Origin: a bacterium
Lineage (GTDB): Bacteria; Chloroflexota; Dormibacteria; UBA8260; Bog-877
Direction of reading: 5' to 3'
Assembly: GCA_021817025.1 (NCBI GenBank)
Contig: JAKAWF010000042.1
Location: 1-18,700, forward strand
Length of the DNA: 18,700 nucleotides
Part shown: positions 556-18,670 of the stretch, in pieces
How the letters are laid out: each line of letters starts with the position of its first letter
Numbering within the stretch: position 1 is the first letter of the stretch
Notes under the pieces: model-generated
The model's database searches: none
The model's input: only the letters and a program-made list of their open reading frames with translations
What the model was told of the DNA's origin: nothing
Translations under genes and position numbers: made by a program

Positions 556-3500
556 ATGGGGCCAGGGGTGACCTCCAAGATGTCGATCGTACGCTTGCCC
601 ACGGTTGAGGACCAAGAGGGAACTCGTGATCGAGCGATCCGGCTCTTCCGCTTCCTGCGAGCAGTCACCGAGCTTCGCAGTCAGCCGATCCGGACCCTGG
701 AGAGATATCCCGAGGTGCTCTGGCTGAGCCAGGTCCCGGAGGAGCGCGAATGCTCAGTGATCTGGCGTTCTAGCTCCAGTGCCGACACCGATAGCTGGCT
801 GCGGGTAAGAAAGCCTTCCTTGCCAGTGCGGCCGGATCCCCCGCGCGTCCTGGACGATTGGCTCATCCCCGAGGAGCTGGATGACTCCAGCCTGGACTTC
901 CCTCCGCTGCACTACCCGCGCATCGAGGTCCCCACTGGTTCTGCCTCCATGGAACCTGACCCAGATCCACCTGCGGCGGTGCGAGACGCCCACGCCCGCT
1001 ACGTGGAGCACGACTGGTGGCCCTGGGCGCTGAAGGACCGCCGGGTCCAGCCGATTCTCAAAGTGTACAAGCAGCTCTTCACGATCTACCAGCGCCAGCG
1101 GCAGCTGGGGGAGCAGTACGAGGTGGTGCTCGGGGTGGGGTTACTCACCTGGACACCTGAGACCGGCTCCACCCAGCCGATCCGGCGTCACCTCCTGGTT
1201 GCCAACTGCAGTTTGGAGTTCGACCCCGACCGGGCGGTCATCTCGCTCGGTCCGGGCGGGGATCGCACCCAGCTGGCCCTAGAACAGGAGATGCTGGACG
1301 CGGAGGTAAGGGTTAGCGGAGCGCCGTTGACCCAGATCGCCCAGCTTCTGGAAGCCGAAGATGCCCTAACCAACCAGGATACTTTGACCAGGGCGCTGCG
1401 GACCTGGGTGAACGCCGCCTCTCCCTCAGGGAGGTGCAGTGAGGGTCTCGTGCCGCCCTCGGAAAGCGGTGTCGACCCGGTGGTCACCCTGGCTCCGGCT
1501 CTCATTCTGCGGCCCCGAGGGGAGAGGTCGCTGCTGGAGATGTTCGACGGAATCATCGAGAACCTCATGGGCGGTGGGGCGCTCCCGGCGGGAGTGCGGG
1601 GGCTGGTGGAAGTTGAGGACGACGAGGTGCCGGAAGAGGAGAGGTCATCCCTCCTCCCTGACGGGACCATCTATTTCCCCCTGGACGCCAACCGGGAACA
1701 GCTGGACATCGTCCGCAAGCTGTCGGCCCATCACGGGGTCCTGGTGCAGGGTCCCCCGGGCACGGGTAAGTCCCACACCATCGCCAATCTGGTTGCCCAC
1801 CTGCTTGCTTGTGGGCAGCGGGTACTGGTCACCAGCCAGGCGCCCCGGGCTCTAGAAGTCCTCCGGGAGCTTCTGCCGGAGGAGATAGCGGCGCTCGCCG
1901 TCCTGCTGTTGGGTTCCGACGCCAAGTCGATCCAGTCGATGGAGGATTCAGTCCAGGGAATCTCCGCGCGCTTTCAAAGCTGGGACCAAGGTCGGGCCGG
2001 AGACGAAATTGTTCGGCTGGAGAAGGAGCGCGACCAGGTGCTGCGGCGCGAGGCGGAAGTCCGAGCTGAGCTTCGCAAGCTGCGGCGCCGGGACTCTGAT
2101 GAGGTGGATCCGCTTCCGGGAGGCTACCGAGGCACCCGCCAGCGGGTGGCGGAGAGGCTGAGTACCGAGCGCGAGGAGCTGGGGTGGCTCTCTGGTTCTA
2201 CGGCCTCCGGGCCTCCGCCACTTTCCAACCACGAGGCCTTGCAATTACTCGATGCGCTGCGGCAGTTTCCCGACATTCGGCGCCAGGCTGACAGCCAGCG
2301 CCTGATTGACCTCCGTCACCTTCCCAGCCCCGATCTGTTCGGCCAGAGGGTGGAAGTAGAGAGGAAGGCCGCCGACCTTGCACGTAGGCAGGCGGCAGCG
2401 GTAGGAGTTCGGCTCCCGCCTGGCATGGAGAAGGTGGACTCCGCCTCTCTCCAAGCGGCCGGAGCCGCCGTTAAAAAGCTCCTACAAGGACTCGAGCTGC
2501 TGCAGCCCCGCCAGGGCGACTGGGCTCGACGACCATGGGACGATCTGGTGCGCGGGTCTGACACCCACTGGGTCTCACTTCGCGGGGACACGGCGACTGC
2601 CCTCACTGCGCTTGAAGGAGCTCAAGATGTCCTGACCCAGCGCCGGGTGAGCGGTATCGAGGCCTCTCAGCGCGACTCCGTGCGGGGCCCCGCTCGGACC
2701 GTGTCTGAACGCCTGAAGCAAGGGCGTGGCCTTGGCTTCCGCCTACTCCAACCAAGGCCCCTGCGAGATGCTCTTGAGGCCCTGGACCGAATCCGCGTTG
2801 ACGGCCTGCCGGTTGATCGAGCGGAAGCAGCCGAAGCGCTGATTCGGTGGATCAACGCTTGGGACCGGATGGATGACCTTGAAGGACTATGGCAGAAGGT
2901 CAACCCTGCCCCTGCTGGCGGCATAGGGTCTCGCCTAGCCCACTACCGTGACTCCTTGCAGCGGCTGGACCAGCTCCTTGAGCTCCAGCCCGCAAGGAAA
3001 AGGGCAGCTGAGCTGGTGGCCGCGGCCAACCTGCCCATATCCGGCGCAGCTCGCTGGGAGGACCTCTCCGGCATCCGCTACTGCTTTGCGCTGCTGGCGG
3101 CTGAAGCCAGCCGTCGGGGGGCTGCGTCCGCCGCCGCGCCCATCCAGGAGACTCTCTCCCAGCTGAGGAATGTGGCAGCGCGAGTGGACAGCCACCCATG
3201 CGTCGGGACGCTCTGGCGCGCCGTCCAAGCTCGCGACGCAGAGGCGTACTCCCGGGCGTATCGCGAGCTGGAGCTGGCCGACGCCGGGCAGCGAAGGGCG
3301 GAGGCGGCCGTGCATCTCCTAGACCGACTGGGAAACGCGCTCCCCCAGGTTGCCGGCGAGCTCGTGGCGACTGCCCAGCTGCCCCACTGGGATGGCCGGC
3401 TCGCGCAGATCGAATCGGCGTGGAACTGGCTCCTTGCGGACTCTTGGCTCCGGCAGCGATCTGCCTCAGAGGAACCGCAGAAGCTGCTCGGGGAGCTCGA

Positions 3501-5928
3501 GGCACTTCACCGCAAATCGCTCTCAATAGCTCGTGATCTAGCGGCCGCCGGGGCCTGGCAGTACTGCCTCCGCCGTCTCACACCGGGCCACCGCCAGCAC
3601 CTCCAAGCCTGGTCCCAAGCGATGCGTCGAGTTGGGCGCGGCACTGGCAAATATGCAGCCAGCCATCGGAAAAACGCCCGAGATCACCTGGAGGCATGTA
3701 GGGACGCGATCCCGGCCTGGATCATGCCCATCTACCGGGTGGCGGAGACCCTGCGGGCCGGGGTCGACGCATTCGATGTGGTTATTGTGGATGAGGCTAG
3801 TCAGTCAGGCCCGGATGCGCTTTTTCTCAACTATCTGGCGCGCAAGATGGTAGTCGTCGGAGACGACATGCAGATCAGCCCCAGCCAGGTGGGCCTGAAC
3901 CTAGCGGAGGTCGATACTCTGGCTCGTGAGCTTCTCGAGGATGTTCCCCACCGTGATGCCCTCACCTTCCGAGACAGCTTGTTCGACCAGGCCAAGATCC
4001 GCTTTTCGGCCCGCGTTGGCCTCCGGGAACACTTCCGCTGCATGCCGGAGATCATTCAGTTTTCCAATGACCTCTGCTACCGCAGCGAGCCTCTGATCGC
4101 GGTCCGCCAATTTGGAGCGGGCCGCCTCTCGCCGGTCGTAATAACCCGCCACGTCAGGGATGGTTACCTGAAGGAAGGGCGCGGCGACCAGAACCCGGCC
4201 GAGGCTCATGCAATCGTGGACACAATCGTGCAATGCTGCGCCAACCCTGCCTACGACGGGAAGACGATGGGGGTGATCAGCCTGGTGGGGGACACGCAAG
4301 CCAAGCTGATTGAGACGATGTTGGTGAAGCAATTAGGCCCAGAGGAGATGGAACGCCGGCAGCTCACCTGTGGCAACTCCTACGCGTTTCAAGGTGCGGA
4401 GCGGCACGTAATGTTCCTCAGCATGGTCTCTGCGGTCTCCGAGACCCACCGCATGACCAGCTTGACCGGAGAGCACGATCGGCAGCGGTTCAATGTAGCG
4501 GCCAGTCGTGCCCAGGACCAGATGTGGCTCTTTCACAGCCTCACCCTAGACGACTTCCATACCTCCGACGACCTGCGCTACCGCCTGCTCGCTTACTGCC
4601 AGAACCCACACTTGGAGCCGACCGCGAGCATCGGCCGGGAAAGGCTCGACGAAATGGAGCGCCGGGCTCGCATCCGAGCCGCGGGCGAAAGCCCGCCCGA
4701 ACCCTTTGAAAGCTGGTTTGAGCTGGACGTGTTCCTGGGTCTTGTGCGGAGGGGATTCCATGTGACCCCGCAGTATCCTCTCGCCGGATACTGGGTGGAT
4801 CTAATGGTGCAGGGGCTGCACGGTCGAGTGGCGGTGGAGTGCGATGGCGATTACTGGCATGGACCCGAACGCCATGATGCGGACATGGCTCGCCAGCAGG
4901 AGCTCGAGCGATGTGGACTTCGCTTCATCCGCATCGCTGGCTCACAGTACTACCTGGATCGCGAGGGCAGCCTCAATGAGGTCGTCGAGGAGCTTCAGCG
5001 ACAGCACGTAAGTCCGATTGGCCGGCCTGAGAGCCCTCAGCGCTCTCAGCGCGTGGCGAGCCCATTCGCGGGGACGTCTGAGTCGGGGGTTCCGGTGGGA
5101 GACGAGCCGGCTTCCTCAGGTCCAATTGCCAACCCAAACGTAGCTTCCGATGCGGCCCCAGGGTCGGAGGAGGCCGGGGCTGCACCAACGATGGAATCAC
5201 GCGACCCGCGGCCCGCTGAGGGATACGGCTCACTTTCGGGACCTGCGCGTACGGAGACGGACTCAGCGTTTCCGCGCACGCGCTCAACATCGTCGGCACC
5301 AGATGGAGGCGCTACCCCAGCAGCCTTCAACGGCCCGTTAGACCGTACGGGGTCGGCCTCCTCGCAGACCGAAGACAGCGCGGGGATTGCGCCTGCGCGT
5401 AGACTTGCCCTCGAGCGCGAAGGTGCCGTGACCCCCAGTCCGGCCCGTCGGCCGGCCCCGCCGACGTCAGCTGCACCGCGTCGCGTCGCGGAGGCACTGG
5501 TTGAGATGATTGGAGCTGAAGGGCCAGTGATCGTCGAGGTGCTGTTCCGGCACTATGTCCGAGCGAGCGGGGGGAGGAAAGTTGGCACCCAGATCCGCGA
5601 GGATCTCCTGCGCGCGCTTCACATAGCGGTCTCCAGCGGGCAGGTTCTCCTGCGAAAGGAGCTTGGCACCACGGACCAGCTCCGAGCGGTAGTGCGACTG
5701 CCGTCGACGCCTGAGGTACTGGTGCGCGACAGGAAGCCGGAGCACAGCATTCGCGAGATACCTCCGAGCGAGGTGGCGTCTGTTATGCGCTCGCTAGCTC
5801 ATGACTACCAGGGGCACGCTCGGGGCGAGGCGTTGTACAGCAGAGTCCTGAAGAGGTACCACATGGTCAGGCTAACCAATGACGCGCACCGCTACCTAGA
5901 TGAAATCGCAAACTTCTACCTCAAGTGA
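556..5928 (+). CDS. SF1 (UPF1/DNA2-like) helicase fused to Vsr/MTES_1575-type nuclease and DUF3320-like domain
   Basis: A 1790-residue cytoplasmic DNA or RNA helicase-nuclease. Visible SF1 motifs are Walker A GPPGTGKS (399-406), motif II VDEASQ (1078-1083), motif III GDDMQ (1102-1106), LREHFRC (1156-1162), motif V FQGAER (1278-1283) and motif VI FNVAASRA (1312-1319). Between motifs I and II sits an insertion of nearly 700 residues, with a charged coiled-coil-like start near 475-520. Residues about 1386-1475 match the Vsr-like/MTES_1575 nuclease pattern: VDL with D1415, then VECDGDYWHG with E1428 and D1430. A Pro/Ser/Gly-rich, probably disordered linker (about 1485-1642) leads to a DUF3320-like C-terminus (about 1643-1720). 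This domain order is typical of the DUF3320 helicase family. Starts at ATG 556 (GGGAG at 542-546) and ATG 580 (AGGGGTGA at 564-571) are about equally supported. A 237-bp gap separates it from the next gene, so co-transcription is uncertain. Confidence 0.93.
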   Translation: MGPGVTSKMSIVRLPTVEDQEGTRDRAIRLFRFLRAVTELRSQPIRTLERYPEVLWLSQVPEERECSVIWRSSSSADTDSWLRVRKPSLPVRPDPPRVLDDWLIPEELDDSSLDFPPLHYPRIEVPTGSASMEPDPDPPAAVRDAHARYVEHDWWPWALKDRRVQPILKVYKQLFTIYQRQRQLGEQYEVVLGVGLLTWTPETGSTQPIRRHLLVANCSLEFDPDRAVISLGPGGDRTQLALEQEMLDAEVRVSGAPLTQIAQLLEAEDALTNQDTLTRALRTWVNAASPSGRCSEGLVPPSESGVDPVVTLAPALILRPRGERSLLEMFDGIIENLMGGGALPAGVRGLVEVEDDEVPEEERSSLLPDGTIYFPLDANREQLDIVRKLSAHHGVLVQGPPGTGKSHTIANLVAHLLACGQRVLVTSQAPRALEVLRELLPEEIAALAVLLLGSDAKSIQSMEDSVQGISARFQSWDQGRAGDEIVRLEKERDQVLRREAEVRAELRKLRRRDSDEVDPLPGGYRGTRQRVAERLSTEREELGWLSGSTASGPPPLSNHEALQLLDALRQFPDIRRQADSQRLIDLRHLPSPDLFGQRVEVERKAADLARRQAAAVGVRLPPGMEKVDSASLQAAGAAVKKLLQGLELLQPRQGDWARRPWDDLVRGSDTHWVSLRGDTATALTALEGAQDVLTQRRVSGIEASQRDSVRGPARTVSERLKQGRGLGFRLLQPRPLRDALEALDRIRVDGLPVDRAEAAEALIRWINAWDRMDDLEGLWQKVNPAPAGGIGSRLAHYRDSLQRLDQLLELQPARKRAAELVAAANLPISGAARWEDLSGIRYCFALLAAEASRRGAASAAAPIQETLSQLRNVAARVDSHPCVGTLWRAVQARDAEAYSRAYRELELADAGQRRAEAAVHLLDRLGNALPQVAGELVATAQLPHWDGRLAQIESAWNWLLADSWLRQRSASEEPQKLLGELEALHRKSLSIARDLAAAGAWQYCLRRLTPGHRQHLQAWSQAMRRVGRGTGKYAASHRKNARDHLEACRDAIPAWIMPIYRVAETLRAGVDAFDVVIVDEASQSGPDALFLNYLARKMVVVGDDMQISPSQVGLNLAEVDTLARELLEDVPHRDALTFRDSLFDQAKIRFSARVGLREHFRCMPEIIQFSNDLCYRSEPLIAVRQFGAGRLSPVVITRHVRDGYLKEGRGDQNPAEAHAIVDTIVQCCANPAYDGKTMGVISLVGDTQAKLIETMLVKQLGPEEMERRQLTCGNSYAFQGAERHVMFLSMVSAVSETHRMTSLTGEHDRQRFNVAASRAQDQMWLFHSLTLDDFHTSDDLRYRLLAYCQNPHLEPTASIGRERLDEMERRARIRAAGESPPEPFESWFELDVFLGLVRRGFHVTPQYPLAGYWVDLMVQGLHGRVAVECDGDYWHGPERHDADMARQQELERCGLRFIRIAGSQYYLDREGSLNEVVEELQRQHVSPIGRPESPQRSQRVASPFAGTSESGVPVGDEPASSGPIANPNVASDAAPGSEEAGAAPTMESRDPRPAEGYGSLSGPARTETDSAFPRTRSTSSAPDGGATPAAFNGPLDRTGSASSQTEDSAGIAPARRLALEREGAVTPSPARRPAPPTSAAPRRVAEALVEMIGAEGPVIVEVLFRHYVRASGGRKVGTQIREDLLRALHIAVSSGQVLLRKELGTTDQLRAVVRLPSTPEVLVRDRKPEHSIREIPPSEVASVMRSLAHDYQGHARGEALYSRVLKRYHMVRLTNDAHRYLDEIANFYLK

Positions 5929-6165
5929 GGCAATCGCGATTCTGTCTGGTGTTCCCCTCCCCACGAGCTGCGAGAAGAATTCGGCCAACGACGGTCTCTA
6001 CTGGCTGGGAAGGATCGTTTGGCGGGGAGACCGCTCGCGTATTCTGGAAGAGGTGCCTACGGGTAGGCTGAGGGTGACCATAGGTGCTCATCGATCTGAG
6101 GCATGCCACGGCCATAGTCAGCGATCCGTGGTCCCCAGATTCCGCCGTCGGTTGGAGGTCGCGCC
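5929..6165 (+). other. Gap between the two helicase genes; may carry a leader or promoter
   Basis: Sequence from the stop of the SF1 helicase to the proposed start of the SNF2 helicase. An 89-codon frame (5900-6169) spans it but overlaps the upstream gene by 29 bases, has a biased Ser/Arg composition, matches nothing I recognise and lacks the strong third-position G/C preference of its neighbours. I treat it as chance. Its TAA stop (6167-6169) does overlap the proposed ATA start (6166-6168), an arrangement like the usual ATGA coupling overlap, so a coupling leader is not fully excluded. I see no convincing promoter hexamers or terminator. Confidence 0.4.
6154..6158 (+). promoter_or_regulatory. 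Shine-Dalgarno site that points to an ATA start at 6166
   Basis: GGAGG lies seven bases before the ATA at 6166-6168, which is ideal ribosome spacing. No ATG, GTG or TTG lies in frame between the stop codon at 6115-6117 and the TTG at 6211. The next candidate site, GAGGT at 6199-6203 before TTG 6211, is weaker and would cut off residues that look like part of the protein family's N-terminus. Confidence 0.55.
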
Positions 6166-9100
6166 ATAACCACCCTTGAGGAGCTTACGCCGGGCCTCGA
6201 GGTCTCCGGGTTGGTGCCCGGCACCGCAGTTGAGGTGGTTGCCGTCACGTGGCATGGAGACAGCGCCGTCACACTCACGTATCGCGATGTCTCCGGTCGG
6301 GTGGCGGAGCGTCTCCTATATCGCGGCGATGAGGCTCACCTTCAGGTGGCGAGGGGGCAGTCCCGCTGGAGCTTTACCGGAGACGCCGCCGCGTTTCGGC
6401 TGGCCGCGGAAGCCAGGCGCATTCGGCTAGGGTACCTCTTCGACCCTTTACTGGCAGTCCACCTGTCCCTGTTGGAACCGCTCCCTCACCAGATCCGAGC
6501 GGTGTACGCAGAGATGCTGCCCAGGCAACCGCTCCGCTTTCTCCTCGCAGACGACCCCGGAGCGGGCAAGACCATCATGTCGGGCCTGTTCATGAAGGAG
6601 CTGATGCTCCGTGGAGACCTCCGCCGCTGTCTGGTGGTGGCGCCGGGTGGGCTCGTGGCTCAGTGGCAGGAGGAGCTGGCCGAGAAGTTCCACCTGGAGT
6701 TCAAGATCCTCACCCGGGACGCGGTTGAGGCAAGCCTGCAGGGCAACCCCTTCCTGGACGAGCCGCTGCTCATCGCCCGGATGCATCAGCTGTCGCGCAA
6801 CTCAGAGCTTCGGCAAAGGCTTGCAGCGACCGACTGGGATCTCGTGGTGGTGGACGAGGCGCACCGGATGAGCGCTCACTTCCAGGGCGAGGAGGTGCGG
6901 AAGACCCAGCTATACGAGCTTGGGGAACTCCTCCGAGGCGTGGCTCGCCATTTTCTCCTCCTGACGGCTACCCCCCATTCTGGAAAACAGGAGGACTTCC
7001 AGCTTTTCATGGCACTGCTGGACCCGGACCGCTTCGCTGGCAAACCACGGGGCGAGATCGGGGACGTCTCGGACCTCCAGCGCCGAATGATCAAGGAGAA
7101 GATCCTGCGCATGGATGGAACCAAGCTCTTCCCGGAGCGACGGGCCTCCACAGTACCGTTCCGGCTCTCTCCCTTGGAGATGGAGCTGTACGATCGGGTC
7201 ACCTGGTACGTGCGCGAGGAGATGAACCGCGCCGACACTCTCCAGGGTGGTCAGAGGGCGGTGGTCGGGTTCGCACTCACTGGCCTTCAGCGGCGCCTGG
7301 CGTCCTCCCCCGAAGCCATCTACCGCTCCCTGCAGCGTAGGCGGGAGCGGCTGGAGGAGCAGTTGATGCGTCCTGATCGGGCTGGGACCGAGGTTGATCA
7401 GGGGCTCGGCCGCCTCCAGGCACTCCTTGCCGGCGGCGGTGATGAGGATCTAAGTGACTTGGACGCGGATGAGGCTGAAAGGCTCGACGAGGAGGCCGTC
7501 GATCAGGCGTCTGCTTCCAGGACGCGGGAGGAGCTGGGCCGGGAGGTCAAAGTGCTCCGCGAGCTGGAGCAGCTGGCAAAGGACGTGCGAGCGGCGGCCG
7601 AGGACACCAAGTGGGTGGAGCTGAGAGGGGTCATTGAACGTCTGGCGATGCCTCAATCCGGTCAGAGGCTGCAGGACAAGCTGATCGTCTTCACTGAGTA
7701 CAGGGCGACCCTCGACTACCTCACATCCCGCCTGACGACCTACCTCGGCCGCCCGGAAGCCGTGGTGGCCATCCATGGGGGCGTGCATCGGGAGGACCGG
7801 CGCCGGCTGCAGTACCGCTTCACGGACGATCCTGAGGTTCTGGTGATGGTCGCGACTGACGCCGCCGGCGAGGGAATCAATCTGCAGCGAGCCCACCTTC
7901 TCATCAACTATGACCTGCCCTGGAATCCCAACCGCATAGAGCAGCGCTTTGGGCGCATCCACAGGATCGGCCAGGAAGAGGTATGCCACATGTGGAGCCT
8001 CGTGGCCGAAGACACCCGCGAGGGCGAGGTGTACCAGCTGCTGCTGCACAAGTTGGAAGAGCAGCGGGAGGCTCTGAAGGGCGAAGTATTCGACGTGCTC
8101 GGGCAGGCGCTGCCGGGACGGACACTGCGCGATCTTCTGATCCAGGCCATCCGCTATGGGGACCGCCCCGAGGTCCGGGCCCAGCTCCGTGAGGTCATCG
8201 ACCGTGACGTGGGGGAGGGCCTGGCGACGCTGGTCGCTGAGCATGCCCTGGCCTCTGAGGTCATGGACCAGCCGGAAGTTGCCGAGGTGAGGGAGCAGAT
8301 GGAGCTGGCGGCTGCACAGCGCCTGCAACCCCACTTCGTGGGCGCGTTCTTCTTGGCGGCGCTGGAGAGGCTCGGAGGTAGGTGGACCGAGCGAGAGTCC
8401 GATCGCTTCGAGCTGCTGTTCGTCCCGGCCGCGGTCCGCAACGCTCCGGGATTCCAGGTCCTGCCTCCACGCTATGAGCGGGTGACTTTCGAGAAGTCGC
8501 TAATCTCAGTTTCGGGTCACCCGCCGGCCGAGTTCATCTGTCCGGGTCACCCGCTGATGGAGGCCGTCGTCGACCTGGTTCAGCAGCGGGAGGGTGCTGC
8601 GCTCACCCAGGGCGCGGTCCTGGTCAAGCCAGGCGGTTCGGATGAGAGCCCTAGTCTCATGCTCTTCCTTGAGCACGAGATTGCAGACTCCCGGCCCGCC
8701 GGGGATGGTCCTCATGTTGTCTCGCGAAGGTCCCAGTTCGTGACCGTTCGGAATGACGGCCGGGTGGAGCCGGCTGGACCCGCCCCCTACCTCGACTGCC
8801 GCCCTCCCGATGCCCGCGAGCGCCAACTGGCGCTTCAGCTCGCCCGGGTACCCTGGCCAGGCGGTGCCGCAGAACAAGCTGGTCTGGACTACGCCATCCG
8901 GGAGCTCGTGCCGGGCCACCTGAACGAGGTGCGATCTTTGACCGTGGGCCGCGTCGAGAAGGTGCGATCGGCCGTGCAGAAGAGGCTGACCCGGGAAATC
9001 ACGTACTGGGACCGGCGGGCTCAGGAGCTGGAGGCCCAGGCGAGGCAGGGGAGGCAGCCAAGGATCAACCCCGCCATGGCCCGCGCTCGCGCCGACGAGC

Positions 9101-9642
9101 TTCAGTTGCGCCTCCAGCACCGACTGGCGGAGCTGGAGCAGGAGCTTCAGCTGCAGCCTCTGCCACCTCGAGTCGTGGCCGCAGCCGTACTGGTGCCCGA
9201 ACAGTTGCTGGAGGCAGGCCCGGCGGGCGCCCGGCATCCACCGATGCACGCACGCGACACGGAAGAGGTCGACCGGCGCGCCATCGAGGCCGTGCTGGCA
9301 GCGGAGCGGCGGCTGGGCCGACGTCCCGTTCCCATGGACCATAACAACCCGGGGTTCGACATCCAGTCTCGGAACTCGGAAGGGCAACTCCTGTTCATAG
9401 AGGTCAAGGGGCGAATCCAGGGGGCCGAGACCGTCACAGTGACGCGCAACGAGATCCTCACCGGCCTCAACACCGGGGGCCAGTACCGGCTGGCCCTTGT
9501 GGAGGTCCTCCCTGGGGGCGGAGAACGGGTTCGTTACCTGGCTGATCCGTTCTCGGACAAGTCCGCTCGGCTAAGCTTCGCGGAGATCAGCACCACCTTC
9601 AGCTGGACCAAGCTCTGGGAGGCGGCGTCCGATCCAGCCTAA
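6166..9642 (+). CDS. SNF2-family helicase with C-terminal DUF3883/NOV_C nuclease-like domain
   Basis: A 1158-residue Swi2/Snf2-type DNA translocase (COG0553-like), numbered from the proposed start. Motif I is DDPGAGKT (129-136), motif II DEAH (230-233), motif III TATPHSG (267-273), motif V ATDAAGEGINLQ (563-574) and motif VI NRIEQRFGRIHRIGQ (589-603). Charged coiled-coil-like segments occur in the inter-lobe insert and near 940-1010. The C-terminus (about 1027-1130) is DUF3883/NOV_C, with GFD (D1065) and IEVKG (E1079, K1081) forming a PD-(D/E)xK-like triad. This helicase type repeatedly neighbours DUF1156 methylases and DUF499 ATPases, and DISARM DrmD is a related SNF2 protein. The start is unusual: the first standard start is TTG 6211, but the frame upstream reads TTLEELTPGLEVSGL, resembling family N-termini. 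With GGAGG at 6154-6158, translation probably begins at ATA 6166; 6211 is the conservative alternative. Confidence 0.93.
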   Translation: MTTLEELTPGLEVSGLVPGTAVEVVAVTWHGDSAVTLTYRDVSGRVAERLLYRGDEAHLQVARGQSRWSFTGDAAAFRLAAEARRIRLGYLFDPLLAVHLSLLEPLPHQIRAVYAEMLPRQPLRFLLADDPGAGKTIMSGLFMKELMLRGDLRRCLVVAPGGLVAQWQEELAEKFHLEFKILTRDAVEASLQGNPFLDEPLLIARMHQLSRNSELRQRLAATDWDLVVVDEAHRMSAHFQGEEVRKTQLYELGELLRGVARHFLLLTATPHSGKQEDFQLFMALLDPDRFAGKPRGEIGDVSDLQRRMIKEKILRMDGTKLFPERRASTVPFRLSPLEMELYDRVTWYVREEMNRADTLQGGQRAVVGFALTGLQRRLASSPEAIYRSLQRRRERLEEQLMRPDRAGTEVDQGLGRLQALLAGGGDEDLSDLDADEAERLDEEAVDQASASRTREELGREVKVLRELEQLAKDVRAAAEDTKWVELRGVIERLAMPQSGQRLQDKLIVFTEYRATLDYLTSRLTTYLGRPEAVVAIHGGVHREDRRRLQYRFTDDPEVLVMVATDAAGEGINLQRAHLLINYDLPWNPNRIEQRFGRIHRIGQEEVCHMWSLVAEDTREGEVYQLLLHKLEEQREALKGEVFDVLGQALPGRTLRDLLIQAIRYGDRPEVRAQLREVIDRDVGEGLATLVAEHALASEVMDQPEVAEVREQMELAAAQRLQPHFVGAFFLAALERLGGRWTERESDRFELLFVPAAVRNAPGFQVLPPRYERVTFEKSLISVSGHPPAEFICPGHPLMEAVVDLVQQREGAALTQGAVLVKPGGSDESPSLMLFLEHEIADSRPAGDGPHVVSRRSQFVTVRNDGRVEPAGPAPYLDCRPPDARERQLALQLARVPWPGGAAEQAGLDYAIRELVPGHLNEVRSLTVGRVEKVRSAVQKRLTREITYWDRRAQELEAQARQGRQPRINPAMARARADELQLRLQHRLAELEQELQLQPLPPRVVAAAVLVPEQLLEAGPAGARHPPMHARDTEEVDRRAIEAVLAAERRLGRRPVPMDHNNPGFDIQSRNSEGQLLFIEVKGRIQGAETVTVTRNEILTGLNTGGQYRLALVEVLPGGGERVRYLADPFSDKSARLSFAEISTTFSWTKLWEAASDPA

Positions 9643-9650
9643 AGGCACCC

Positions 9651-9658
9651 GGGGAGGA
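9651..9658 (+). promoter_or_regulatory. Ribosome binding site of the small unknown gene
   Basis: GGGGAGGA sits about ten bases before ATG 9669 and begins only eight bases after the SNF2 helicase stop. It supports translation of the 124-residue protein from this ATG as part of the same transcript. Confidence 0.6.
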
Positions 9659-9668
9659 AACGATCGAA

Positions 9669-10043
9669 ATGACGCCGGAGGTCGCGAAGAGGCTGGCGGA
9701 ATACGTCGCCCAGAACCGGATGCGGCTGGCATCCCTGCACCCGGGTACTCCCGTGTCGACCGAGGAACTCGCGAAAGAGCTGGCTAGTGACGCTCACTTC
9801 GCAAAGATTGGCCTCTGCAAATTCTGGCGCGACCCCACCGTGGAAGAGGTGCGGGCGGTGCTGACGGCCATCCCGGACCCCTACGGAGTAGGGCCGCCGG
9901 TCGAATTGCTCGCTACCGCGGTCACCCTCGCCTGCAGCAAGCACACGCGTGGGCCGCGAGGAGTGTCCATCGCAGCCGGGACGGTGGGCACGCTCGTCCT
10001 TGGGTGGCTCATCTCAAGGGCATCCGGGGGCCGCCATGGCTGA
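9669..10043 (+). CDS. Small protein of unknown family with hydrophobic C-terminal segment
   Basis: I do not recognise this 124-residue protein. It is very likely real: third codon positions are strongly G/C, a good ribosome site precedes ATG 9669, it starts 26 bases after the helicase stop, and its end overlaps the methyltransferase start by 8 bases, implying translational coupling. The N-terminal two thirds look soluble and helical (MTPEVAKRLAEYVAQN, then a charged helix near VEEVRAVL). A hydrophobic stretch of about 18 residues (VSIAAGTVGTLVLGWLIS, from residue 99) near the C-terminus could be one membrane span or an amphipathic packing helix, with a short basic tail. Similar clusters often carry a small DUF3780 gene beside the methylase. 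This one is shorter and shows no resemblance I can identify. It might be an adaptor, a membrane anchor or a regulator; no function is claimed. Confidence 0.8.
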   Translation: MTPEVAKRLAEYVAQNRMRLASLHPGTPVSTEELAKELASDAHFAKIGLCKFWRDPTVEEVRAVLTAIPDPYGVGPPVELLATAVTLACSKHTRGPRGVSIAAGTVGTLVLGWLISRASGGRHG

Positions 10044-12750
10044 CGAACGCGAAGGTCCGCCGAGAAAGCTCATTGAGGTAGCCCTGCCCCTGCAGGCGAT
10101 CAACGAGGCTTCGTCTAGAGAGAAGTCTATCCGGCATGGTCACCCATCCACGCTGCATCTGTGGTGGGCCCGGCGCCCCCTTGCCGCCTGTCGAGCTGTC
10201 CTCTTCGCCCAACTGGTGGACGACCCTTCGGCGCACCCTGACAGGTTCCCCACCGAGGAAGCTCAAGAGCGCGAGCGGGAGCGACTCTTCGAGTTGATCC
10301 GCCAGTTGGTCCAGTGGGAGAACTCTTCCAACGATCGTGTCCTAGGCGCGGCCCGGGCAGAAATCCGCAACTCTCTCGGAAGCGACCTTCCGCCCGTGCT
10401 CGACCCGTTTGCCGGGGGCGGGTCCATCCCTCTCGAAGCGCAGAGGCTGGGGCTGGAAGCTCACGCTGGAGACCTCAACCCAGTCGCGGTCATGATCTGC
10501 AAGGCGCTGATCGAACTTCCCTTTGCGTTCAGGGGACAACCCCCGATCTCGAAGCGGAGCGAGCTCGCTCTTGGCGCGGGCAGCTGGCACGGCGCGACAG
10601 GCCTGGCTGCGGACGTCCGACATTACGGGAACTGGATGCTCGAGCGGGCGCGGACCCGGATTGGCCACCTCTACCCGCCAGCCCAACTGCCCACCGGAGG
10701 CCAGGCACCTGTCATTGCCTGGCTCTGGTCCCGGACGGTGGTCTGCCCTAACCCAGCCTGTGGAGGGCGGGCACCGCTGCTGCGCTCGTTCGTGTTGTCT
10801 AGCAGGGCAGGGAAGCGCGTTTGGATGCGACCAGTGCGGAGCGGCAGTCAACTGTCATTCGAAATTGTCCAGGGAGATGGCGCCCCCGCAGAGGGGACGG
10901 TATCTAGGACAGGTGGCAAGTGCCTTCTCTGCGGCTCGCCCATCCCGCTTCCCCACATTCGATCGGAGGGGCGCGCCGGTCGGCTCGGAGCCCAGCTCGT
11001 GGCCATCGTCGCCGAGGGGAACAGGCAGCGAGTATACCTGCCCTCGACGTTGGAGCATGCCCGCGCGGCAGACGTTCCATCGCCCGCCGATGTGCCGATA
11101 GCTGAACTGGCAATAGACCCGCGAAACGTGTGGTGCGTGAACTACGGGCTTACGCACATCTCCGATCTATTCACCGCCCGCCAGCTTACGGCCATTGTCA
11201 CTTTCTCCGACCTCGTGCTGGAGGCCCGCGATCAGGTGATCGCGGACGGTGGGAGCCAAGAATACGCTAGTGCAGTCGGGACGTACCTAGCATTCGCTGT
11301 GGACAAGATGGCAGACATTTCGAGCTCTCTGGTGACCTGGAAGCCATCGATGAACCAGGCGATACATGGATTCACCCGGCAAGCGCTACCGATGGTATGG
11401 GACTTCGCAGAAGTGCAGCCGTTTTCTGGAGCAGCGGGAGACTTCGGCGTCACCGTAAGCGGGATCTGCAAGGTCTTGGAAGGACTCGTGCCGATCTCAT
11501 CTGGTGAGGGCCATCAGGTGGACGCAATAAAGTCCACAAATGGACTCCAGCGTGCCATCATCTGCACCGATCCTCCCTACTATGACAACATCGGGTACGC
11601 AAACCTAGCTGATTTCTTCTACGTCTGGCTCCGCAGGTCCATCCGCGCACTGTATCCGGACGTCTTTGCAACTGTCCTTACCCCGAAGCGGGAGGAGCTG
11701 GTTGCCGACCCGCAGCGCTCCGGCGGCAGGGACGCAGCCAAGGCCGGTTTCGAGGCAGGGTTCCGGGCAGCCGTGGGAAACCTTGTGGGCATTGCCGACC
11801 CTCGATTCCCGATCACTATCTTCTACGCCTTCAAGCAGGCCGAAACGGATGGCGGCGACCAGGTAGCGTCAACCGGCTGGGAGACGATGCTGAAGGGGCT
11901 CATTGCCTCTGGCCTCTCGGTCAGGGGGACATGGCCAATGCGCACCGAGTTGGGTAACCGGCCGCGTGGCCAGCGGAGCAACGCATTGGCCTCGTCGGTG
12001 GTGCTGGTCTGTCGGCGACGGCCCGACCGCGCGGGCATTGTTGACCGCAAGGGCCTGCTCGCCGAGTTGAGGGCCTCCCTCCCCGATCGGCTACGGGTAC
12101 TGCAGCAGGAGACGATCGCACCGGTCGACCTTGCCCAGGCGGCAATCGGGCCCGGGATGGAGGTCTTCTCCAAGTACGACAGGGTGCTGGAGGCTGACGG
12201 GACGTCCATGGCGGTTCGCACCGCTCTGGGCCTCATCAACCACGTGCTGGATGAGGTGCTTGCAGCGCAGGATGGCGAGTTCGACCCGGAGACCAGATGG
12301 GCGGTGTCCTGGTTCGAGCAGCACGGGTTCGGAGACGGCCCCTTTGGGGACGCGGAGACACTATCGAAGGCTCGCGTCACCAGCGTGGGGCGCCTCGAGA
12401 ACATCGGTGTGGTTGACTCGAAGGGAGGCAAAGTCCGGCTGAGATCCCGAGTGGAGCTGGACTCCGGAGACGGATTCCCCGATCCCACCGGTCCAGTCTG
12501 GACGCTCGCCCAGGTTGCCGCCAACAGGCTAGCTGCCCATTCGGAGGTGGCCGCCGCAGAGGTGATCGCCACCTGCCCGAGTTCCCGAGAGGCGATTCGC
12601 GATCTTGCGTACCGCCTCCACGCGATAGCCCAGAAGCAGGGTCGGGCGGAGGATGCCGCCTGCTACAACGATCTTGGCGCCGCGTGGGCCGACATCCAGA
12701 AGCTGGCCGATGGCATCGGAAGGGCACCGCATCAGGACGCGATGCTCTAA
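10036..12750 (+). CDS. DUF1156/COG1743-type DNA adenine or cytosine-N4 methyltransferase with Zn-ribbon
   Basis: A predicted 904-residue S-adenosylmethionine-dependent DNA amino-methyltransferase. The N-terminus (RKLIEVALPLQAINEAS, then HPSTLHLWWARRPLAACR) is the DUF1156 signature. The SAM-binding motif I is DPFAGGGS (123-130), followed by DLNP (146-149). The catalytic motif IV is DPPYYDN (512-518), followed by the family's FFYVWLRRS-like segment. About 380 residues separate the two motifs and include a probable zinc ribbon (C237, C242, C296, C299); this insert may hold the target-recognition region. The frame is open back to GTG 9949, but ATG 10036 begins right at the conserved N-terminus and overlaps the previous gene by 8 bases, so I chose it. 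It should mark self DNA for the helicase-nucleases encoded nearby. The modified base and target site cannot be read from the sequence; adenine-N6 is the usual prediction. Confidence 0.93.
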   Translation: MADEREGPPRKLIEVALPLQAINEASSREKSIRHGHPSTLHLWWARRPLAACRAVLFAQLVDDPSAHPDRFPTEEAQERERERLFELIRQLVQWENSSNDRVLGAARAEIRNSLGSDLPPVLDPFAGGGSIPLEAQRLGLEAHAGDLNPVAVMICKALIELPFAFRGQPPISKRSELALGAGSWHGATGLAADVRHYGNWMLERARTRIGHLYPPAQLPTGGQAPVIAWLWSRTVVCPNPACGGRAPLLRSFVLSSRAGKRVWMRPVRSGSQLSFEIVQGDGAPAEGTVSRTGGKCLLCGSPIPLPHIRSEGRAGRLGAQLVAIVAEGNRQRVYLPSTLEHARAADVPSPADVPIAELAIDPRNVWCVNYGLTHISDLFTARQLTAIVTFSDLVLEARDQVIADGGSQEYASAVGTYLAFAVDKMADISSSLVTWKPSMNQAIHGFTRQALPMVWDFAEVQPFSGAAGDFGVTVSGICKVLEGLVPISSGEGHQVDAIKSTNGLQRAIICTDPPYYDNIGYANLADFFYVWLRRSIRALYPDVFATVLTPKREELVADPQRSGGRDAAKAGFEAGFRAAVGNLVGIADPRFPITIFYAFKQAETDGGDQVASTGWETMLKGLIASGLSVRGTWPMRTELGNRPRGQRSNALASSVVLVCRRRPDRAGIVDRKGLLAELRASLPDRLRVLQQETIAPVDLAQAAIGPGMEVFSKYDRVLEADGTSMAVRTALGLINHVLDEVLAAQDGEFDPETRWAVSWFEQHGFGDGPFGDAETLSKARVTSVGRLENIGVVDSKGGKVRLRSRVELDSGDGFPDPTGPVWTLAQVAANRLAAHSEVAAAEVIATCPSSREAIRDLAYRLHAIAQKQGRAEDAACYNDLGAAWADIQKLADGIGRAPHQDAML

Positions 12751-12752
12751 GT

Positions 12753-12757
12753 GGAGG
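12753..12757 (+). promoter_or_regulatory. Ribosome binding site fixing the GTG start of the DUF499 gene
   Basis: GGAGG directly follows the methyltransferase stop and lies six bases before GTG 12764. It decides for this start over the upstream in-frame ATG 12653, which would overlap the methyltransferase gene by 98 bases and add residues unrelated to the HEPN domain. Confidence 0.75.
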
Positions 12758-12763
12758 TCCCGA

Positions 12764-15700
12764 GTGACAGCGAGTAACAGGGAGCGGATCGGCAGGGCTC
12801 TAGAGTTGGTGGCAGCCGGGCTGGCGCCCTTCTTGGACGCCCAGATGCGGGCAGTAGTACCCAAGGGCAGCAATTGGATTGAGGCCGTATCAGCCCGCTT
12901 CGGACTCGTGCACACTCCCTCCCTTACCGACCCTCAGTTCCAATTGAAGGTCATATGGGACTCCTGGAACGAGGTTTTCGCCAAGATCCTGCAGCGTAGC
13001 GACCGGACCCAGGTGAGCATCCTGATGGATGCTCGGAACTCATGGGCTCACAACAAATCGTTTTCCTTTGACGACACCTATCGTGCTCTGGATGCCGCCC
13101 AGTCGCTCTTGTCCGCAGTTGGAGCTGAGCCGCAGGCGGCAGCCGTAAAGCGCTCCAGGGACGAGGTCCTTAGACAGAGGTACGAGGAGGAGGCCCGTAA
13201 GACGTCCAAAGCGGTTTCCGTGGGGGGTACTACGGTGGCGGGACTGCAGCCGTGGCGGGAAGTGATCGTGCCACACCCCGACGTGCGCTCCGGAGGGTTC
13301 GTGCAGGCCGAGTTCGCGGCCAACCTATGGCAGGTGTTCCAGGGAGATGCCGCCCCTGAGTACCAGGACCCCGCCGAGTTCTTTCGTCGCACGTACCTCA
13401 CGGATGGACTGCGCCAACTCCTAACCGACGCGCTGCGGAGGATGGCCGGGAAGAGGGGCGCCCCGGTAGTGGAACTCCAGACCACGTTCGGAGGTGGCAA
13501 GACCCATGCACTCTTGGCCCTGTACCACCTCTTCTCCGGCACTCCGGCTAGCCAATTCCCCCAGGAAGTCCAGGACATCATCAGCCGGGCCGATGCCCAG
13601 CCGCCACAGTCAGTGAAAAGAGTGGTGCTGGCCTGCGACCGGATCCCGCCCGGGCAGGCAGTCGCCAAGCCTGACGGGACCTCAGTCAGCACGTTGTGGG
13701 GGGAGATCGCCTGGCAGCTGGGAGGCCCGGAGGGGTATGCGCTGGTGGCGCAGTCCGACCGCGCCGGCACCAGCCCAGGGGCACAGCTCGATGAGGTCCT
13801 GCGCCGCTACGGCCCTGCTCTGATCCTGATTGACGAGTGGGTCGCATACGCTCGGCAGCTGTACCACGACCAGGGTCTCCCAGCGGGAAGCTTCGATGCG
13901 CACTTCACGTTCGCCCAAGCACTGACGGAGGCCGCCCAGTCTGTGCCCGGCTGCCTTTTGGTCATATCGATTCCCCAATCGGAGGCCGGGCCTTCAGGGG
14001 CCGGGTACGAACCGGCCGGCTCCAGCAGCGAAGTCGGAGGGCCGGGTGGCCGCGAGACGCTCTCCCGGCTCCGGCTGGTCGTGGGCCGGGTGGAGTCACC
14101 GTGGCGGCCTGCGACTTCCGACGAAAGCTTCGAGATTGTGAGGCGCCGGCTGTTCCAGCCACTGGATGGGCCTGAAGCATTCGCTGCCAGGGACGCCACA
14201 GCCAGGGCGTTTGGAGACCTCTATCGGCGCCAGGCCCGAGACTTTCCCATCGAATGTCGCGAAGAGGCATACGTGACCCGGATCAAGGCAGCGTACCCCA
14301 TTCACCCGGAGCTCTTCGATCGTCTTTACCAGGCCTGGTCCACCCTAGAGAGATTCCAGCGCACGAGGGGCGTGCTCCGGCTCATGGCGTCGGTCATCCA
14401 CTCACTTTGGGCTGGCGCAGATGGTGCGCCCCTTATCCTTCCAGGGACCGTCCCGCTCCACGATTCGGTCGTCTCAACAGAACTCACCAGGTATCTAGAG
14501 GACAATTGGAAGCCAATCCTAGATCGAGATGTGGACGGGCCAGGCTCTCTCGCGCAACAACTTGACGCCGAGCACTCCAATCTGGGGCGCTTCGGTGCTG
14601 CCCGCAGGGCCGCCCGAGCCATCTTCCTCGGGTCTGCCCCAACCTTGGGCACTGCCAACCGGGGACTCGACGAGATCCGAGTCCGCCTGGCCTGTGCATT
14701 CCCCACTGACCCGACAGATGTTTTCTCCGACGCCTTGCGACGACTGGCCAGTTCGTCCACATTCTTGTATAGCGAGGGGCACCGATTCTGGTACGACACC
14801 CAGCCGTCGGTCAGCAGGACCGCGGCGGAACGCAAGCAGCGCTATCTGGAGCACCAGCACGAGGATGTCCAGGACGAGCTAAAGAGGCGTCTTCGCGCGG
14901 ACAGCTTGATTCGCGCCCAGCGGGGTGGATTCATCGCTGTCCACCCGGCACCCGACACCAGTGCCGAAATTGAAGATTCCGACGACGGCGTGAGGCTGAT
15001 CATCCTTGGGCCGGAGGTGTCTCACTCTTCCAAGCTAAGCAAGTCGACAGCGGTCCAGCGGACCATGGATATCCTTGAGCATCGGGGAAAAGCGCCCCGC
15101 CTCTACCGAAACCTAATGCTCTTCCTAGCCGCCGATGGAAGCCGCCTCGATGAACTGCTGGACTCGATCGCTGACTTCCTCGCCTGGAACTCCATCCAGC
15201 AGGAGATGGAGGATTTAGGACTTCTGCAGCAGCGCCGGCAGATCGAGACGAGGCGCCAGGACAGTGATCAAACTGTGCGCTTGCGGCTGCTGGAAACCTA
15301 CAACTGGATCCTTGTACCCAGCCAGCCAGAAAGGTCCGGTGCGGTGACCCTCGACGCCCTAAGGGCTACCGGAGAGGACGGCCTCGCTGCTCGCACCTAC
15401 CGCAAGCTTTGCGAGAACCAGCTTATCAACGACGTGTACAACCCCATTCTCCTGCGTCGCGAGCTCGACGCGATCCCACTTTGGCGGGGAGACCACATCA
15501 CAGCGGGCGAGCTCTGGGACCACTTGGCCCGCTACATATACCTACCCAGGCTCCGAGATCGGGAAGTGCTCTACGGAGCGATTGCCGAAGCCCCCAGGCA
15601 ACTGATCCCCGAGAGGTGGCGCGAAGAGAGCTTCGGAGTGGCGACTGTCTTCGATGAGTCGACGGGTCGCTATCGGGGGGTAGTTGGACCAGGCGGTGAT

Positions 15701-16048
15701 CTCCATGGGCCAGTTCAGTCGGGTACGCTGCTGCTTCATCCCTCGGCGATCACCGAAGTACCCCCAGGGACCCCGCCGCCACCGCCACCGCCACCGCCAC
15801 CGCCACCGGCAGTGCCCCGGAGATTCCACGCATCGGTGCCGCTGGATCCGCTCCGTGCTGCTCGTGATGCAGGGCTCGTTGCAGAGGAGATAGTCCGGCT
15901 GCTGACTGGCGTTCCGACAGCTTCTGTCCAGGTGAGGATGGAGATTCTCGGACACGCACCAGACGGCTTTCCTCCTGAGGTCGAGCGCGCGGTGACAGAA
16001 AACGCATCCGTCCTGCACGCTGAAGTCTTCGGGTTCGAAGACGACTAG
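12764..16048 (+). CDS. Swt1-HEPN + DUF499 (COG1483) AAA-type ATPase
   Basis: A predicted 1094-residue cytoplasmic ATPase. Residues about 1-120 form a Swt1-like HEPN domain ending in RNSWAH (R91 to H96), an intact Rx4H motif of HEPN ribonucleases. The DUF499 ATPase follows: Walker A-like TTFGGGKTH (240-248) and Walker B LIDEW with D357 and E358. The family segments RVESPWRPA and SFEIVRRRLFQ come next, then a long helical C-terminal half. Near the end are twelve consecutive prolines (1004-1015) encoded by a CCG/CCA hexanucleotide repeat, then the conserved DUF499 tail (FHASVPLDPLRAARDAG to TENASVLHAEVFGFE). The GTG start lies 13 bases after the methyltransferase stop, with an excellent ribosome site. 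In the cluster it is the likely sensor or motor of the DNA-marking system; the HEPN domain suggests RNA cleavage as an abortive arm (inference). The HEPN part could instead be a non-catalytic interaction module. Confidence 0.93.
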   Translation: MTASNRERIGRALELVAAGLAPFLDAQMRAVVPKGSNWIEAVSARFGLVHTPSLTDPQFQLKVIWDSWNEVFAKILQRSDRTQVSILMDARNSWAHNKSFSFDDTYRALDAAQSLLSAVGAEPQAAAVKRSRDEVLRQRYEEEARKTSKAVSVGGTTVAGLQPWREVIVPHPDVRSGGFVQAEFAANLWQVFQGDAAPEYQDPAEFFRRTYLTDGLRQLLTDALRRMAGKRGAPVVELQTTFGGGKTHALLALYHLFSGTPASQFPQEVQDIISRADAQPPQSVKRVVLACDRIPPGQAVAKPDGTSVSTLWGEIAWQLGGPEGYALVAQSDRAGTSPGAQLDEVLRRYGPALILIDEWVAYARQLYHDQGLPAGSFDAHFTFAQALTEAAQSVPGCLLVISIPQSEAGPSGAGYEPAGSSSEVGGPGGRETLSRLRLVVGRVESPWRPATSDESFEIVRRRLFQPLDGPEAFAARDATARAFGDLYRRQARDFPIECREEAYVTRIKAAYPIHPELFDRLYQAWSTLERFQRTRGVLRLMASVIHSLWAGADGAPLILPGTVPLHDSVVSTELTRYLEDNWKPILDRDVDGPGSLAQQLDAEHSNLGRFGAARRAARAIFLGSAPTLGTANRGLDEIRVRLACAFPTDPTDVFSDALRRLASSSTFLYSEGHRFWYDTQPSVSRTAAERKQRYLEHQHEDVQDELKRRLRADSLIRAQRGGFIAVHPAPDTSAEIEDSDDGVRLIILGPEVSHSSKLSKSTAVQRTMDILEHRGKAPRLYRNLMLFLAADGSRLDELLDSIADFLAWNSIQQEMEDLGLLQQRRQIETRRQDSDQTVRLRLLETYNWILVPSQPERSGAVTLDALRATGEDGLAARTYRKLCENQLINDVYNPILLRRELDAIPLWRGDHITAGELWDHLARYIYLPRLRDREVLYGAIAEAPRQLIPERWREESFGVATVFDESTGRYRGVVGPGGDLHGPVQSGTLLLHPSAITEVPPGTPPPPPPPPPPPPAVPRRFHASVPLDPLRAARDAGLVAEEIVRLLTGVPTASVQVRMEILGHAPDGFPPEVERAVTENASVLHAEVFGFEDD
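15773..15808 (+). repeat. CCG/CCA hexanucleotide microsatellite coding for poly-proline
   Basis: Five perfect CCGCCA units (15776-15805), flanked by CCG codons, give twelve consecutive prolines joining the ATPase body to its conserved tail. Slippage by one unit would add or remove two prolines without frameshift, so the linker length may vary between strains. Confidence 0.9.
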
Positions 16049-16590
16049 CCTGGGGTTTCATGTGTCTGTGCGGCATCCGGCCGGCCAACGGCAGGGCCAG
16101 ATGGGCTGCGCCCACAACACTGCCTCTGCTCATGCGGTCAGGAGCACGCTTGGCTCATTCCTGTCCTTTCTACATCCTCGAATACGTTCGCACCTCAACA
16201 GCTCTGTTCGCGCCCCACGCACTTCGCTCGGGCCTCGCGAGACCGCATCACGGTTCCCCCGAGGCAGCTCCCGCGCCGACGCTACTTCATGAGAAATGGG
16301 CCTATTTTCTCGAAGTACTATCCATGCTGTGGCCGTCGTCTCCATCCCGCGCTACAACCTGGACTCCTCCCGTCAGGTGTACGGCTACCGGCGTCAGCTG
16401 GGTCTGCGCCGACTTCATTGCACGCCGCCGCGCCCCAGTTGCGGGCTAGCCTCGTACGGTACATATGGTGCTGCATTGGCGGTCCATATACATACTCTCA
16501 GTCCCGACGAGCCTCGCGTGCGACTCGGTGCCACATAGTTTCTGGCAGCCTGAGGCTCCTCGCACGGTCCGCATACCGGGGTATCATAGA
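16049..16590. other. 542-bp gap without a recognisable gene before the OLD gene
   Basis: Several short frames overlap here in different phases (16060-16449, 16289-16600 and others), but none has a credible ribosome site, the third-position bias of the neighbours or a recognisable sequence, so no gene is called. The stretch is visibly less GC-rich toward its right end, with AT-rich patches such as catatacatact (about 16485-16496) that could contain a promoter for the OLD gene; no clear -35 partner is seen. A weak 6-bp hairpin (GAGAAA 16291-16296 with TTTCTC 16306-16311) is present. The gap separates the operon from the next transcription unit. Confidence 0.55.
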
Positions 16591-18592: not shown

Positions 18593-18630
18593 CCCCACCC
18601 GCCGCAACTGATCCGGGACGGCGGGTGGGG
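18593..18630. repeat. Perfect 12-bp inverted repeat (hairpin) after the OLD gene
   Basis: CCCCACCCGCCG (18593-18604) pairs perfectly with CGGCGGGTGGGG (18619-18630) across a 14-base loop, about 70 bases after the OLD stop codon. It would fold strongly in RNA, but no T-run follows, so it is a poor intrinsic terminator. It may instead be part of a mobile-element end, since its right arm runs straight into the tandem repeats. Confidence 0.7.
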
Positions 18631-18670
18631 AAGTGAGGGCGGGTCACTGGGGAAGTGAGGGCGGGTCACT
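18627..18670. repeat. Two perfect tandem 22-bp repeats at the right edge
   Basis: The unit begins GGGGAAGTGAGGG and ends CGGGTCACT; copies lie at 18627-18648 and 18649-18670 with no differences. A related GCGGGTCAT occurs at 18561-18569. Closely spaced repeats with GCGGGTCACT-type cores are reminiscent of the multiple internal terminal repeats of IS21-like insertion sequences, so an IS may begin just beyond the window. No transposase is visible inside it. Confidence 0.7.

Follow-up and report, generated by a model that had tools for sequence, protein, structure and literature searches.

The window analysed here is the 18,700-nt stretch at the start of contig JAKAWF010000042.1 (GCA_021817025.1), from a bacterium of the Dormibacteria. 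Three of its genes, hmaA, hmaB and hmaC, are recognized by their family matches as the known Hma operon, also called a Type-1 BREX-Related (BR) system, in the variant with a HEPN-fused ATPase, and it appears to be an ordinary, well-formed member lying within a defence island. We consider it very probable that the region consists of this operon at the centre, separate defence genes of the superfamily 1 (SF1) helicase and OLD types, and a gene for a 124-residue protein, new and lineage-specific, acting as passenger or accessory in a variable slot between hmaA and hmaB. The original prediction, a new five-gene system in which two helicases act as effectors, is not supported.

The five open frames of that prediction are all present on the plus strand (556-5928, 6211-9642, 9669-10043, 9949-12750 and 12653-16048), and a Pfam scan confirmed the domains assigned to them. 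A sixth gene on the same strand lies beyond position 16,048, where the predicted cluster ended. The six proteins (P0001-P0006) were scanned against Pfam, PADLOC and NCBIfam (Table 1). Judged by their strong family matches, the four large frames among the five cannot be the product of chance. The PADLOC models are covered from 18 to 1167 of 1176 positions in HmaA, from 8 to 964 of 967 in HmaB and, in the best stretch, from 3 to 809 of 941 in HmaC (residues 198-1032 of the open reading frame, ORF). The C-terminal domain of HmaA is NOV_C, which we take to be the DUF3883 domain. The three genes are adjacent on one strand, with only the gene of the 124-residue protein intervening.

Family identity, gene order and motifs were read from the window itself and compared with those of its relatives. 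A search with hmaB in 400 and 396 genomes of two phyla, judged to be Chloroflexota and Actinomycetota, gave matches with E <= 1e-80 in 68 and 26 of them, respectively. Of these 94 genomes, 40 (29 and 11), for the most part those with the highest scores, contributed one fetched place each. All three hma genes were found in 32 of these 40 Hma loci, confirming the earlier statement that DUF1156, DUF499 and SNF2-DUF3883 genes recur together, and the order A-B-C on one strand was kept in 32 of 32. Among the best 120 of 7994 HmaC relatives, HEPN_Swt1 and DUF499 occur together in 120; the nearest are 97, 87, 74 and 71% identical to HmaC, and one from Candidatus Dormibacteraeota (P0144) is 56% identical. 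In 121 aligned sequences, query included, the arginine of the HEPN motif RNSWAH is present in 121 and its histidine (H133 in ORF numbering) in 120, while the Walker A lysine and the Walker B aspartate-glutamate of the ATPase are kept in all 121. The DPFAGGG and DPPY motifs of HmaB and the DEAH and EVKG motifs of HmaA are intact, as read by eye only.

Some fetched loci are arranged differently. Two Hma-like ones (L173 and L175) have the hmaC match upstream of hmaB, and no hmaA turned up in the sequence fetched for them; the order A-B-C is thus not shared by all. In another (L178, 2981-9894), hmaA matches extend over about 6.9 kb and their summed score is nearly double the best one (994 of 1876 bits), as if two hmaA-like genes stood side by side.

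Table 1. Genes of the window, with the evidence on which each assignment is based.
Feature	Position	Strand	Evidence
SF1 helicase with MTES_1575/Vsr-type nuclease (P0001)	556..5928	+	MTES_1575 1e-23, AAA_11, AAA_12
hmaA (P0002): SNF2/RapA-like helicase with C-terminal NOV_C (DUF3883) PD-(D/E)xK nuclease	6166..9642	+	PADLOC HmaA 1372.8 bits; NOV_C E 9e-17
124-residue protein (P0003), no known family, in the hmaA-hmaB slot	9669..10043	+	relatives, codon-position GC, spacing
hmaB (P0004): DUF1156 DNA methyltransferase	10036..12750	+	PADLOC HmaB 1038.4 bits; DUF1156 E 3e-33
hmaC (P0005): Swt1-type HEPN RNase domain fused to DUF499 AAA+ ATPase	12764..16048	+	PADLOC HmaC 921.9 bits; HEPN_Swt1 4e-27; DUF499 3e-27
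OLD-type ABC ATPase with TOPRIM-like C-terminus (P0006)	16465..18522	+	AAA_21 2e-16, AAA_15 6e-15, OLD-like_TOPRIM E 0.015 (below cut-off)

Hma was named in 2021 from 1,638 instances (Payne et al. 2021, PMC8565338). It is likewise a three-gene operon of helicase, methylase and ATPase, and its three PADLOC models match here at 922-1373 bits; the differences are that the HEPN domain of our HmaC lies outside the best PADLOC stretch and that the gene of the 124-residue protein is placed between hmaA and hmaB. A comparison with profile databases, as proposed with the original prediction, returned a defined system for three of the five genes, not for all five. The same trio constitutes the Type-1 BR systems, reported from 2446 taxa, 1370 of them with a HEPN-fused ATPase and 1921 (79%) with a helicase-nuclease fusion (Rakesh and Krishnan 2026, PMC12839542; what is said of this and the other cited papers concerns the parts of their texts available to us). 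The window shares with them the DUF499 ATPase with N-terminal HEPN, the DUF1156 N6-methylase, the SNF2 helicase with an active C-terminal restriction endonuclease (REase) domain, and TOPRIM/OLD genes among the companions; among the defining features tested we found no difference. That paper also describes features at the fold level, namely TUDOR and inactive REase domains in the helicase and winged helix-turn-helix and RNA-recognition-motif domains in the ATPase.

Before these systems were named, identical domain fusions (HEPN-DUF499 and SNF2-DUF3883) had been noted as components of a restriction-modification (R-M) operon which, unlike Hma, carries no defined system name in the portion of the source at hand (Anantharaman et al. 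2013, PMC3710099). The three core genes are also of the same kinds as those of the operon of COG1743, DUF499 and SWI2/SNF2 nuclease predicted as a restriction system (Bell et al. 2020, PMC7641849). That operon has an EVE protein, whereas no EVE-domain protein is found among the six scanned here.

Other systems (DISARM, ARMADA, BREX and Hhe) were weighed by means of the scans and the papers and do not match. For DISARM, as had been stated earlier, the core is absent, with no separate drm genes in the scans of the six proteins; only HmaA bears a resemblance, to DrmD with 369 bits and to DrmA with 247, compared with 1373 bits for the HmaA model, and it reaches 374 bits with the NCBIfam DrmD model, whose cut-off is 610. 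Type-2 BR was rejected because neither the HKD/PLD nuclease nor DUF3780 was found by Pfam in the six proteins, and Type-3 BR/BREX because PglZ had no match in them and the BrxC model gave only 17 bits. The claimed absence of BREX core genes holds for PglZ and BrxL, both without a match in the six proteins, but it needs a qualification, since HmaA also matches a BREX helicase model with 328 bits and the literature treats hmaABC as homologous to the ATPase, methylase and helicase of BREX type 3 (PMC12839542).

For the way in which the operon could work we follow the family literature. In the model given in PMC12839542, an R-M-like module, the methylase places the self mark, the ATPase is the scanner, the helicase-nuclease is the effector and HEPN provides a last-resort suicide; Liu et al. 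2024 appears there, as a reference entry, as the cited source of experimental support for the helicase nuclease. Transferred to the window, HmaB would methylate the cell's own DNA at a fixed sequence, probably at adenine. HmaC, through its DUF499 ATPase, would scan or load on unmarked DNA and recruit HmaA, which would translocate and cut the unmarked DNA by its DUF3883 nuclease. The HEPN domain of HmaC may serve as a fallback RNase that halts cell growth if cutting fails, and the upstream SF1 helicase-nuclease and the downstream OLD-type gene would act as separate defence genes. Of the restriction-like defence proposed originally, the DNA marking, the helicase-nuclease as effector and a possible suicide role of HEPN stand, as they coincide with the published Hma/Type-1 BR reading, and the five-gene version with two helicase effectors does not.

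Overlaps between the listed frames arise because the earliest possible start of a frame is probably not its true one. The most likely start of hmaB is ATG 10036. For hmaC, GTG 12764 is most likely, since the 97%-identical relative has 1094 aa. In hmaA, comparison of the aligned 5' ends of 34 relatives suggests that translation probably begins at ATA 6166, 15 codons 5' of the listed TTG 6211: in 31 of the 34, an ATG, GTG or TTG stands 13-16 codons ahead of the residue aligned with that TTG, and GGAGG is found at 6154-6158, 7 bases before the ATA. Two loci (L155 and L164) have ATC at the corresponding position, the former with an extra TTG 9 codons before the residue aligned with TTG 6211 and the latter with GTG and TTG further upstream; in a third (L184) none of these is present. 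The ATA may be a start kept weak on purpose, the product being a dangerous helicase-nuclease.

The ATA, with no ATG, GTG or TTG at the expected start, could also be taken as the sign of a degraded remnant without active defence. We find this most improbable, considering that all frames are of full length, the catalytic residues of the SF1 protein and HmaC are conserved, the motifs of HmaA and HmaB look intact, an ATC occupies the same hmaA position in two other loci, and the ATA is preceded by GGAGG, while TTG 6211 could serve as well.

The membership of the SF1 helicase-nuclease in the system was evaluated from both sides. The SF1 scan, with one genome per species and an alignment of 16 SF1 relatives, provided loci for the best 80 of 239 relatives, with 29-44% identity. 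By tblastn (E <= 1e-5), hmaB or hmaC was found beside none of the 80; a single locus (L075) has a SNF2-helicase match, of 37% over HmaA residues 88-752, on the opposite strand and about 7 kb away. Conversely, no relative of the SF1 protein or of the 124-residue protein was found at E <= 1e-3 in the 40 Hma loci, 34 of which include hmaA. On these two counts the five genes were rejected as one system: among the sampled loci the SF1 gene stands with the other four only here, an outcome that the original prediction had named beforehand as refuting it.

Additional searches gave a similar picture. In 7 of the genomes behind the SF1 loci, hmaB was strongly matched in two (G002 and G006), on other contigs, and in one more only as a fragment with E 7.5e-4; G043 also has both SF1 and hmaB, on different contigs. 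In the class to which G061 belongs, hmaB is matched in 7 of 110 genomes (E <= 1e-40) and SF1 in 2 of them (query P0007, at most 4 candidates scored per genome), in neither case on a contig shared with hmaB. The 604 mechanical neighbour ORFs within 6 kb across the 80 SF1 loci revealed no recurrent partner family, the largest cluster being present in 5 of the 80 with mixed side and strand. In viral contigs there was no confirmed SF1 match; hmaB was found in 3 loci, all with hma genes and none with a match to the SF1 or the 124-residue protein. In plasmids, SF1 hits came from 409 records, but no single place in any of them covered 80% of the query; hmaB hits came from 177, of which 93 cover at least 80%.

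The SF1 family is a large one, and in 120 of its sequences, counting the query, Walker A, DEAS and the nuclease residues E1389, D1415, E1428 and D1432 are conserved in 118-120. The PDC-S37, Hhe and ProA proteins are also SF1 helicases, and their matches concentrate in the C-terminal half, comprising the helicase end and the Vsr-type nuclease. They are, however, of partial length only (PADLOC PDC-S37 218 bits, Hhe 105 bits), and an Hhe or ProA identity was rejected at 137 of a cut-off of 2000 bits and 209 of 1500, respectively, in NCBIfam. The closest relatives of the SF1 protein are 65, 61 and 47% identical, the first being P0007 from Candidatus Dormibacteria. The identities of HmaC and of the 124-residue protein (98, 86, 72 and 63%) fall together down their lists of relatives and that of SF1 drops at once; this is no more than suggestive of a separate arrival of the SF1 gene and of a small gene that has moved together with hma in the lineage. 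We judge the SF1 gene, from its family and its surroundings, to be an independent, stand-alone defence gene next door. Just 5' of it (91-334), there is an 18-base GC-rich unit in seven copies with at most 2 mismatches, six on the plus strand, spaced by 35-48 bases, and one on the minus strand, against 0.01 expected in shuffles.

It could still be argued that the region is a five- or six-gene composite, in which the SF1 helicase-Vsr protein, and perhaps the OLD-type one, acts as a second effector on DNA flagged by HmaC. All genes are close and on one strand, no terminator was found between SF1 and hmaA, and auxiliary effectors with PD-(D/E)xK, HEPN, HNH and TOPRIM nucleases are reported near or within Type-1 BR loci (PMC12839542). 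In the available text of that paper, however, no SF1 helicase-Vsr companion appears, the term SF1 occurring once, in a reference title, and Vsr not at all. We regard the composite as very unlikely given the empty counts in both sets of loci, the genomes with the two families on different contigs, the relatedness pattern of SF1, which differs from that of HmaC, and the lack of a recurrent SF1 partner.

Several points weigh against the reading of a three-gene operon with an independent SF1 neighbour. Many flanks are incomplete: downstream sequence of at least 1.5 kb exists in 61 of the 80 SF1 loci and of at least 4 kb in 50, so the fair denominator for an hma operon directly downstream is 50-61 and not 80, and the sequence upstream of hmaA reaches at least 1.5 kb in 29 and at least 4 kb in 24 of the 40 Hma loci. 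In G002, G006 and G043 the contigs are those of drafts, and the SF1 and hmaB-like genes might yet be neighbours. The closest SF1 relatives (65 and 61%) fall outside the sampled loci, which leaves room for a recent local pairing with hma. Neither promoter nor terminator was found in the 282-nt gap between SF1 and hmaA, which is uninformative by itself; with the common strand and no terminator detected, the two genes may be co-transcribed. The sources are also in conflict about HmaB, an m5C methylase according to PMC8565338 and adenine-specific according to PMC12839542 and PADLOC.

Among about 5.8 billion proteins, only four relatives of the 124-residue protein (62-98% identity) reached E <= 0.001, and no family was assigned to it by Pfam, PADLOC or NCBIfam at the thresholds used. 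The gene nevertheless looks real because of these relatives and of the 8-base overlap of its end with the ATG of hmaB. It begins 26 nt after hmaA, GGGGAGGAA is found upstream of it, and its codon-position GC is similar to that of the neighbours. The predicted model is mostly helical, with a mean predicted local distance difference test score (pLDDT) of 65.6 and residues 95-124 below 50, and matched no solved structure at E <= 0.001. A hydrophobic C-terminal segment is present in 5 of 5 sequences (maximum 17-residue Kyte-Doolittle mean 1.88-2.06).

The tight spacing to both neighbours, the divergence in step with HmaC and the hydrophobic segment would be compatible with a fourth Hma subunit, essential in this lineage, membrane-tethered and made in step with HmaB. 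We consider this unlikely, though: besides being missing from the 40 other Hma loci, including that of G061, in which 31 nt separate the hmaA match from the hmaB match, the protein was found in none of the 110 genomes of the class of G061, in a search without a positive control, and its predicted structure is of low confidence. We take it instead to be a passenger or accessory specific to the lineage.

The place that this gene occupies is often a wide gap in other Hma operons. The gap between hmaA and hmaB exceeds 250 nt in 22 of the 34 fetched loci having both, and that between hmaB and hmaC in 16 of the 36 with hmaB before hmaC; as each gap was taken from one tblastn match to the next, gene ends left unmatched are counted in it. 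In some of them there is no convincing gene, and one locus (L168) has a split hmaA. From 66 slot ORFs chosen mechanically, a few of them in the viral-contig loci, 20 were run through Pfam. They include DarT, a macro domain, Schlafen AlbA_2 (2), GmrSD_N (2), PIN, NYN, a nucleotidyltransferase and a HEPN protein side by side, OLD-type AAA (2), AbiJ_NTD4, an ADP-ribosylglycohydrolase with a phosphatase, a lone NOV_C and, in a viral-contig locus (L082), a sacsin-type ATPase. One of the 20 is the second half of a split hmaA and three have no family; further slot ORFs are tied by BLAST to those identified by Pfam. Several slots thus hold what their domains indicate to be toxin-antitoxin or abortive-type genes. 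Part of this pattern is already known, as nucleases are described near or within such loci in the available text of PMC12839542; the existence of two slots as a rule is proposed here from the gaps and their contents. It is possible, and we offer it tentatively, that two cargo slots are repeatedly loaded with varied suicide or toxin-antitoxin modules, that inhibition of the core by a phage frees an exchangeable killer, and that the 124-residue gene is a new, possibly membrane-anchored cargo.

In having the ATPase together with a weak TOPRIM match, the downstream gene (P0006) is comparable with OLD-type or PARIS-like ATPase-TOPRIM genes and with the backup effectors of PMC12839542, where OLD/TOPRIM genes are given as common companions of Type-1 BR. 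Its similarity to known systems is low (88 bits with the AriAB model). A weak match to it is found in 3 of the 40 Hma loci, and it is 26-27% identical to OLD-type genes near two Hma loci besides that of the window. In G360 (L196), whose HmaC is 73-74% identical to that of the window, hmaC is directly followed by the gene of a 546-aa protein (5481-7121), whose match to reverse transcriptases stays below the Pfam cut-off, and only then by that of an OLD-type ATPase, 27% identical to P0006. The flank of the operon is thus variable. P0006 itself is likely auxiliary or independent. Two tandem copies of a 22-base unit lie at the window's right end (18626-18669). No tRNAs or Rfam families were found in the window.

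With this operon, one more lineage joins a defence family that is widespread but understood mostly by inference as to its mechanism, and the slots seem to be a more useful lead than the operon itself. Should the genes in them prove to be backup effectors connected with the core, Hma would amount to a platform on which suicide modules can be exchanged.

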